Positions 273-37,519 of a DNA stretch of 37,519 bases are shown here, piece by piece. The first letter of the stretch is position 1, and each line of letters opens with the position of its first letter. The position numbers and the translations under genes were made by a program. The DNA comes from an uncultured bacterium. Lineage in GTDB: Bacteria > DUMJ01. The notes beneath the pieces were generated by a model, which did no database searches, was not told the origin of the DNA, and saw only the letters and a program-made list of their open reading frames with translations. The stretch is taken from contig CALGNK010000045.1 of the NCBI GenBank assembly GCA_937958695.1, forward strand, positions 1 through 37,519, in the 5' to 3' direction.

Positions 273-283
273 TTGATCACCTC

Positions 284-329
284 CTTTCTGTAGTGTTTTT
301 ATCTAATAATATGATAACACTACGGAAAG
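284..329. repeat. Inverted repeat at presumed IS end
   Basis: CTTTCTGTAGTGTT at 284-297 is mirrored by AACACTACGGAAAG at 316-329, 13 of 14 positions pairing, with an AT-rich loop. It sits directly upstream of the transposase ribosome site, so the right arm in the minus-strand transcript abuts the Shine-Dalgarno sequence. It could be the element's terminal repeat, or a hairpin that limits translation of transcripts entering from outside. Confidence 0.6.
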
Positions 330-436
330 GGGGTATCTTTATCTGAATCCAGATGTCCGAACTTCAGCTTGTATATATTACATCTCTTGACTTGAAGTTA
401 GATCCAGCAATTAAGGTATGGAAAAACAGAGGTATA

Positions 437-594: not shown

Positions 595-644
595 TAGAGT
601 AGGAGAAATCGTCCAAAATCTTAATAAATGGCTAAAAATAGTAA

Positions 645-836
645 GCCGTAGGTCCCAACGAATCTTTGAAAACCCGCCCCAAAGTCCCTTAAGCGGTTTG
701 CCCATCTACCTTTAGGGTTCCTTACTAAATTCTGGAATGGACTCCAGAATCTTAGCAGGTTTCCCTTAGTAGCCTAGGCTACCAACCTAAGTTTCTTTGG
801 TTTCAAGGTCTTCTAGACCCCTCAGAAACCTACGGC
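645..836 (-). ncRNA. Unidentified structured RNA, about 192 nt
   Basis: On the minus strand the segment begins GCCGTAGGT (836-828) and ends ACCTACGGC (653-645), a perfect 9-bp closing stem. Inside are a 12-bp hairpin (725-755, ATTCTGGA/TCCAGAAT core, extended by CTAA/TTAG), a 14-bp palindrome (769-782), a GGTC/GACC hairpin (807-819) and a possible second long-range stem, CTTGAAACC with GGTTTTCAAAG. A TTGACA-N17-TATTAT promoter at 843-871 would start transcription at about 836, the first base of the closing stem. A T-rich stretch (TTACTATTTTT) follows the last stem base. No protein frame explains it. It matches no riboswitch, SRP RNA, tmRNA or RNase P consensus I know. A 6S-like RNA, or an RNA/MITE derived from an IS200/IS605 element, are possibilities. 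Confidence 0.55.
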
Positions 837-837
837 A

Positions 838-866
838 CTTATATAATACTCCCCTTATATAATACT
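838..866. repeat. 13-bp direct repeat with TATAAT cores
   Basis: CTTATATAATACT occurs at 838-850 and again at 854-866. Both copies lie within the promoter region of the structured RNA, and both contain a TATAAT on the plus strand and TATTAT on the minus strand. The duplication may create alternative -10 elements. Confidence 0.8.
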
Positions 867-871
867 GTCAA
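843..871 (-). promoter_or_regulatory. Sigma-A-type promoter of the structured RNA
   Basis: The minus strand carries a perfect -35 box TTGACA (871-866), a 17-bp spacer and a -10 box TATTAT (848-843). The predicted start is near 836. This is one of the best sigma-A matches in the window, and no protein gene lies downstream in this orientation. Confidence 0.7.
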
Positions 872-887
872 TACCCGCTGGGGGTAT
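871..887. repeat. Short hairpin ATACCC/GGGTAT
   Basis: A 6-bp stem with loop GCTGG lies between the minus-strand ncRNA promoter and the plus-strand glucuronidase promoter. Its role is unknown; it may insulate or regulate either promoter. Confidence 0.4.
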
Positions 888-37145: not shown

Positions 37146-37175
37146 TGTAAAAATACCCTACCAGGGTATCTTACA
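37146..37175. repeat. Interrupted hairpin in non-coding DNA
   Basis: TGTAA-AA-ATACCCT, loop ACC, AGGGTAT-C-TTACA forms a 12-bp stem with a small internal loop. There is no T-run on either side, so it is not an obvious terminator. It lies 55 bp before another inverted repeat. Confidence 0.5.
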
Positions 37176-37230
37176 TCAAAAATTTATAGAAATTTTTACC
37201 TCCCAGTAAGGACCTATCAATAAAAAAAGA

Positions 37231-37284
37231 ACCATCCTGTAGCCTGTTCTATATTTATCCTAAAAAAGGAGGCTACAAGATGGT
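37231..37284. repeat. 15-bp inverted repeat overlapping a start codon
   Basis: ACCATCCTGTAGCCT (37231-37245) and AGGCTACAAGATGGT (37270-37284) pair at 14 of 15 positions around a 24-nt loop. The right arm contains part of the ribosome site and the ATG of the frame at 37280. The layout recalls the hairpin at the left transposase (284-329). Confidence 0.7.
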
Positions 37285-37372
37285 ATGTATCATTCCTAAA
37301 GTAGTATACAACATGAAAAGAAGAATATCTATAGTCCTTGAGAATTCTAGTAACTTAAGATACTTCACATAA
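37280..37372 (+). CDS. 30-codon orphan reading frame with strong ribosome site
   Basis: The frame starts MVCIIPKVVYNMKRRISIVL and ends at TAA after 30 codons. AAGGAGG (37266-37272) is 7 bases before the ATG, an ideal spacing, so the start is credible, but a 15-bp hairpin would bury it. I recognise no family. It is most likely the 5' stub of a transposase or other accessory gene truncated by recombination near the CRISPR array, or a genuine small basic peptide. Confidence 0.3.
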   Translation: MVCIIPKVVYNMKRRISIVLENSSNLRYFT

Positions 37373-37414: not shown

Positions 37415-37519
37415 ACCTAAATCCCTTATAGGTTAGCTACAAACAGTTTAGGATTAGATTTGGCGCAGGAATATTCTGATCGTTTCAATCCCTTATAGGT
37501 TAGCTACAAACGTGAAAGC
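37415..37519 (-). CRISPR. Trailer end of a CRISPR array (continues past window)
   Basis: Two 30-bp repeats lie at 37415-37444 and 37482-37511, separated by a 37-bp spacer (37445-37481); a second spacer begins at 37512. The intact repeat starts GTTTCAATCCC and ends GTTAGCTACAAAC. Its reverse complement ends in ATTGAAAC, the usual 5' handle of type I-B and III crRNAs, so transcription should run on the minus strand from a leader to the right. The repeat at 37415 has lost its first bases (ACCTAA instead of GTTTCA), as expected for the last, decaying repeat at the trailer end. No cas gene is in the window. Confidence 0.9.

Follow-up and report, generated by a model that had tools for sequence, protein, structure and literature searches.

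Background and comparison

To our knowledge, Dictyoglomi-1 (RF01703) has remained since 2010 a motif of one poorly sampled phylum, function-less and of uncertain status. It was rated "probably" an RNA, with uncertain cis-regulation (Weinberg et al. 2010, PMC2864571), and this was the only report found in our literature search on the motif. The type-2 CsoR operator has a TAC-N9-GTA form with G-tracts and the consensus ATATACCCCTNAGGGGTATAT (PMC3902906), and the cysteines used by CstR of S. aureus, which senses per/polysulfides, are C31 and C60 (PMC5480029). In CsoR/CstR regulons, a TAC-N9-GTA operator with C/G tracts lies at the promoter and the same site autoregulates the repressor gene, and the described targets are efflux, sulfurtransferase and sulfide-oxidation genes.

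The window analysed here is a stretch of 37,519 nucleotides of an uncultured bacterium (contig CALGNK010000045.1, assembly GCA_937958695.1). At the level of sequence, our analysis establishes a transcription unit at 645-887, its copies, a covarying structure, a basal homology to Dictyoglomi-1 and an operator in common with a DUF156 gene. Similar to Dictyoglomi-1, the window RNA has a sigma-70-type promoter, a start at the stem base, a T-run and more than one copy per genome, as well as a GCCnnAGGY closing stem, an upper basal helix of 4-6 bp, CGUUG on the 3' side, a G opposite G, a GGGUCY helix with G-U pairs and a long apical part that is likewise a rod, though with no sequence alignable to the long members. 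In the other lineage, the stem-base start follows a -10-like box, the end is likewise a T-run, and multiple copies are present. However, the window RNA lies below the RF01703 gathering score, and its closing-stem pairs differ, with compensation. The copies of the window's genus also carry the same kind of promoter operator as CsoR/CstR regulons, whereas RF01703-type copies do not, and the putative target here, unlike those described, is a non-coding RNA. No non-coding RNA was described as a CsoR/CstR target in a coarse word search of the literature.

Promoter and transcription unit

The features of the unit are as follows.

871..887, no strand: palindrome ATACCCCCAGCGGGTAT of CsoR/CstR operator type, in the form TAC-N9-GTA and bearing C/G tracts, directly adjoining the -35 box
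866..871, minus strand: -35 box TTGACA, unchanged in 8/8 full copies
847..854, minus strand: second G-tract and GTA half-site GGGGAGTA between -35 and -10, in variant form in all copies
843..848, minus strand: -10 box TATTAT, from motif search and copy alignment
645..836, minus strand: rod-shaped non-coding RNA of ~192 nt with its 5' end at 836, from fold, eight full copies and covariation
828..836, minus strand: closing stem, 5' arm GCCGTAGGT, with double compensatory changes relative to Dictyoglomi-1 relatives
814..827, minus strand: basal motif, 5' side (upper basal helix, unpaired G 821 opposite G 659, GGGUC helix)
654..665, minus strand: basal motif, 3' side AGATTCGTTGGG, pairing with 814-827
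645..653, minus strand: closing stem, 3' arm ACCTACGGC, from fold, consensus structure and compensated pairs
634..638, minus strand: T-run TTTTT past the closing stem, presumed transcript end with predicted termination

A first-pass annotation of these letters had proposed a near-perfect promoter with a start at about 836, a perfect 9-bp closing stem and a T-rich end, all of which were recovered. TTGACA-N17-TATTAT (871-843, minus strand) agrees with the consensus in 11 of 12 letters and is the sole match in the window, where 0.02 would be expected by chance. The predicted transcription start at 836-837, 6-7 nt past the -10 box, coincides with the first bases of the closing stem, and a near-consensus sigma-70 promoter would drive the RNA from about 836. 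GCCGTAGGT (836-828) pairs fully with ACCTACGGC (653-645), and TTTTT follows at 638-634; in the copy alignment, TTA-T-TTTTT lies 3' of the closing stem in most copies. The same annotation saw no protein in this region, and we agree: the longest internal ORF, which would begin with an ATG at 705, lacks its start codon or changes frame elsewhere, frame-breaking indels in the different copies leaving 16-aa, 10-aa, truncated or run-on peptides, and a coding function was rejected.

Copies and genomic neighbourhood

A nucleotide search for further copies, suggested with the first-pass annotation, found eight full copies across three genomes. Blast located four of them in G000, the genome to which the window belongs, namely the window copy on C45 and copies on C5 (95%), C8 (92%) and C7 (87%), and C8 additionally carries a 45-base piece of the RNA unit. 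A further two full copies lie in each of two other genomes of the same genus, G001 and G002, and one 3'-half copy is additionally present in G001. A covariance model built from the eight copies of this genus only (R1) found no copy beyond these in the three congeneric genomes; under strict filters and at E 0.01, none of 383 other genomes gave a match. Searches of phage, plasmid and viral collections likewise yielded no RNA copy.

Alignment of the copies defined a common unit running from ATACCCCC via promoter and RNA to TTAnTnTTTTT, with unrelated flanks. The two full copies of G001 (G1a and G1b) are 95-97% identical in promoter and 3' arm, whereas the G1a apex matches copies of other species and differs from the G1b apex. 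This mosaic suggests exchange between copies within one genome.

The copy flanks are rich in phage, plasmid and toxin-antitoxin genes. The window copy lies near a GH2 gene (named by eye) and an aldo/keto reductase remnant, the C5 copy near a HepT remnant and DeoR (the latter named by eye), the C8 copy near MntA-HepT and an ADP-ribosylglycohydrolase, and the C7 copy near GH78 (named by eye). A RepA-like replication initiator sits between both full copies of G001. In G002, one copy (G2a) neighbours an MFS transporter and the other (G2b) has a tyrosine integrase gene 51 bp from the RNA 3' end. A phage-type primase/helicase module shares its contig with the partial copy of L014, and such a module also lies beside the 3'-half copy of G001 (G001:C51). 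L012 and the 45-bp piece on C8 are partial, decaying copies. The mobile-element flavour of these neighbourhoods may explain the dispersal.

A 73-bp sequence directly upstream of the C5 copy (L035 9581-9653) recurs roughly nine times in G002, is present in G001 too, and represents a dispersed repeat.

Rod structure and covariation

The 192-nt RNA folds at -90.2 kcal/mol on the minus strand, compared with -56.5 +/- 4.6 for shuffled sequences (z -7.3), whereas the opposite, plus strand folds much more weakly (-59.8, z -3.9). Single copies of G002 and G001 folded alone gave z values of -7.6 and -9.8. The fold is one continuous rod with small internal loops, rather than the region full of hairpins that the first reading had pictured.

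The RNAalifold consensus of the eight copies contains 72 pairs. In the eight-row alignment, 97.9% of pair cells are standard and seven pairs are doubly changed, so that the compensatory changes named beforehand as a check are present. None of 500 shuffles matched the observed pairing, double changes or covariation score, and sliding the alignment by one column destroyed the pairing signal. The eight rows are close relatives and the consensus structure was derived from the same alignment; therefore, these counts are not treated as independent proof. In every row several G-U pairs persist that the opposite strand would turn into A-C, and the minus strand is therefore the RNA strand. The sequence of the apical rod varies among the RNAs, while the basal motif is conserved.

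Relation to Dictyoglomi-1

In an Rfam scan of the window copy at gathering and permissive thresholds, no family reached its gathering score, and matches to GP_knot1, rli38 and SmY were rejected as chance. The first-pass annotation had described an orphan, free-standing structured RNA with its own promoter and no known family. The free-standing structured RNA is well supported, since three genomes carry it, its promoter is conserved and its pairs covary, and no Rfam gathering score is reached; "orphan", however, is wrong because the RNA is a distant relative of Dictyoglomi-1. In the permissive scan, one G002 copy (L020) aligned with RF01703 over its full length at 11.8 bits (gathering score 150 bits), and its closing stem, its AGGGGUC segment and its CGUUG segment all fell in register; the other copies of the genus scored lower, below the reporting limit.

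Across 386 genomes, RF01703 matched three, all of one other family: G351 (171 bits), G222 (138 bits) and G079 (62 bits; loci L093/L091, 61-62 bits). Only G351 exceeds the cut-off, and the G222 and G079 copies fall short of it. Because of these matches, the three genomes are taken as Dictyoglomus or kin; by the ranks assigned in the collection, the only one that its RF01703 genomes share with the window's genus is the domain. The reverse search, R1 against 13.4 kb with filters off, is the stronger test of the relationship. It found both G079 loci, L093 at 35.9 bits (E 7.8e-8) and L091 at 35.4 bits (E 1e-7), with the next-best match at E 8.6e-4, and the alignment to the G079 copies is in exact register from UGCC through GGC. 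The longest Dictyoglomi-1 RNAs (L089) were not recovered end to end by R1, and the link runs via the shorter G079 copies.

When the basal arms of the two lineages were aligned by hand from their helices, 30 of 45 aligned bases were identical and six of 19 basal pairs were doubly changed (G-C/A-U, U-A/C-G, U-A/C-G, C-G/U-A, U-A/C-G and U-A/C-G). The 5' side of the basal motif (814..827, minus strand) is common to the window RNA and its Dictyoglomi-1 relatives, and the G opposite G followed by the GGGUCY helix rich in G-U pairs is found throughout both lineages. The apical rods are all rod-shaped, but the sequence of the window RNA cannot be aligned there with the long RF01703 members; the G079 members deviate from the RF01703 consensus apical rod as much as the window RNA does. 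Since it fails the RF01703 gathering score, the window RNA is called a divergent branch: judged by basal core and anatomy, it is of the Dictyoglomi-1 kind, and formally it is a non-member of RF01703.

The G351 and G222 copies (L089, L094) have a palindrome of their own between -35 and -10, CTTTAAAG (AACTTTAAAGTT in L089), which is possibly another type of operator.

Operator palindrome and candidate repressor

The operator palindrome is present in all seven full copies whose upstream side is kept, and also in the partial copy L014. The copy operators read ATACCCCC-nnn-GnGTAT with a variable centre, matching the form of the type-2 CsoR operators (PMC3902906), and promoter and operator arms are conserved across species. 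The additional G-tract and GTA half-site at 847..854 is a possible second repressor contact.

A search of the three genomes allowing at most one mismatch recovered the sites of the RNA copies and, per genome, one site 5' of a DUF156 (PF02583) gene, located between the -10 box and the ATG in 3/3 genomes. This CstR-type gene is followed by two thioredoxin-like genes and a thioredoxin reductase. Under a simple base-composition model about 0.13 such sites are expected per genome, and five were observed in G000. Since the palindrome is common to the RNA promoters and the DUF156 gene at this expectation, a single repressor very probably governs both the RNA and the thioredoxin operon. The remaining sites are intragenic, except one at G001:C118:5447 (L044 1501-1517), where a perfect operator palindrome is followed by a promoter-like TTGATA...TATATT and no RNA copy; it is possibly a decayed RNA copy or another regulon member.

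The CstR-type DUF156 protein, 78 aa long and encoded on C19 in G000, contains C29 and C58, 29 residues apart, and a tyrosine four residues before the second cysteine, at the position of the copper-binding histidine in CsoR. A second DUF156 paralogue, with the copper-type Cys-His-Cys, is found with copA, and the palindrome was absent from its copA operon. Based on the residues of the CstR-type protein and the content of its operon, reactive sulfur is the presumed signal. The copies of the other lineage are without this operator, and the regulation is therefore lineage-specific at best.

Proposed role and alternative explanations

Our favoured reading, which we consider reasonably probable, is a stand-alone, sigma-70-transcribed rod RNA of a divergent Dictyoglomi-1 branch, with two to four copies dispersed over each genome, induced by stress through a CstR-type link and acting in trans. 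In resting cells, the DUF156 repressor would occupy the palindrome abutting the -35 box and keep RNA polymerase off. Reactive sulfur or another thiol oxidant would modify the two cysteines of the repressor, which would then leave the DNA, and all RNA copies would fire along with the thioredoxin system. More tentatively, the basal motif, with its G opposite G and GU-rich GGGUCY helix, might bind a protein, while the diverging apical rod might serve mainly as a stable spacer. Pairing of the RNA with mRNA appears less likely, because nearly the whole RNA is internally paired. A CsrA-type decoy was also considered and rejected, as GGA motifs, counted by eye, are not above composition chance. A bolder version, which we regard as possible but doubtful, is a family of rod RNAs in two deep lineages that spreads with mobile elements and is, in this genus, inducible by thiols or reactive sulfur, multi-copy and able to titrate a protein via the basal motif; a CstR-type regulon would thereby gain its first non-coding RNA.

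Several other explanations were weighed against this reading. Transfer RNA, tmRNA and some sRNA genes serve integrating elements as attachment sites, and the RNA might likewise be carried by, or be an attachment site for, such elements, the copies then reflecting the elements and not a role in the host. This idea is compatible with the favoured reading and draws on the integrase beside G2b, the RepA-like initiator between the G001 copies and the primase/helicase module on the contig of the L014 copy and beside the G001:C51 half copy; we nevertheless consider it rather unlikely, as the stretches read show nothing of this kind within 5 kb of several copies, the copies revealed no attachment core, and the phage, plasmid and viral collections yielded none. 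A non-autonomous DNA element (a MITE or similar), whose hairpin would matter as DNA and whose transcript would be incidental, would account for the sharp-ended copies at four unrelated sites, for the decaying pieces and for the flanks rich in mobile genes. Dispersed copies flanked by target duplications had been foreseen as a sign of a MITE; dispersed copies were found, but terminal inverted repeats were not: the copied unit spans operator, promoter, RNA and T-run, its outer ends being ATACCCC and TTTTTT, and the conserved operator and promoter lie outside the hairpin. One strand also folds far better with conserved G-U pairs, compensatory changes preserve the RNA helix, and promoter and operator arms persist across species. 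No common target-site duplication was seen in the alignment of copy ends, and syntenic empty sites sought between species around the C5 and C8 copies gave none that was comparable. The window RNA is probably not a MITE, and we give that explanation a small probability. As for the suggested IS200/IS605 guide RNA, the ORFs listed around the copies, part of which were scanned against Pfam/NCBIfam, included no recognisable TnpB or IscB, and nothing in these sequences supports it.

The 6S-like RNA raised in the first-pass annotation would be a second, divergent 6S-type decoy bound by RNA polymerase like an open promoter. Its size, its own promoter and a rod that starts at the base of a long terminal closing stem are shared with 6S RNA (RF00013), and the window copy aligned end to end with that model, but weakly (11.5 bits, the gathering score being 46.4). 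The central bubble characteristic of 6S RNA is absent from the consensus rod, which has small internal loops only; the other copies gave no match to the 6S model, and both G000 (50.5 bits) and G001 (59.5 bits) have a true 6S gene at another place. The suggestion is therefore unsupported, and we hold it to be quite improbable. In G002, no 6S RNA was matched at E 10 or by blast, so replacement in that genome may be conceivable; the absence may reflect an assembly gap or loss. The least probable explanation, to which we give very little credence, is a leader or riboswitch for a downstream gene. A large structured RNA does stand upstream of genes at some places, and Weinberg et al. (PMC2864571) marked cis-regulation by Dictyoglomi-1 as uncertain; at four of the eight copies, however, the next downstream gene is convergent, so that a general leader role is ruled out; the downstream genes are without common function, and the T-run closes the unit.

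Under the favoured reading, a divergent Dictyoglomi-1 branch is now placed in a second lineage with a shared basal core defined by covariation, and the Dictyoglomi-1 kind is presented as a free-standing gene. The promoter, which seemingly answers a thiol-sensing repressor alongside the thioredoxin system, offers a first handle on function, and the role of Dictyoglomi-1-type RNAs therefore becomes testable by simple induction.

Other repeats and palindromes in the window

The left end of an insertion sequence at window positions 276-376 abuts ATACCCCC and the 26-bp ATCTGAATCCAGATGTCCGAACTTCA, which is also found 5' of the L014 RNA copy; the insertion may have cut another RNA promoter. The presumed transposase ORF (272-3, minus strand) runs off the contig and has no Pfam/NCBIfam match. 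At 37154-37168, some 130 bp 5' of the ORF spanning 37022-35955, a TAC-N9-GTA palindrome, TACCCTACCAGGGTA, is a possible further operator. A dispersed inverted-repeat element, ACCATCCTGTAGCC...GGCTACAAGATGGT, occurs at 37220-37300 before a CRISPR array and at L012 1230-1330, adjoining the G001 3'-half copy. Finally, we also identified a CRISPR repeat at the right contig end (37482-37511; RF01315, 44.7 bits), which is preceded by a partial one at about 37423-37451.
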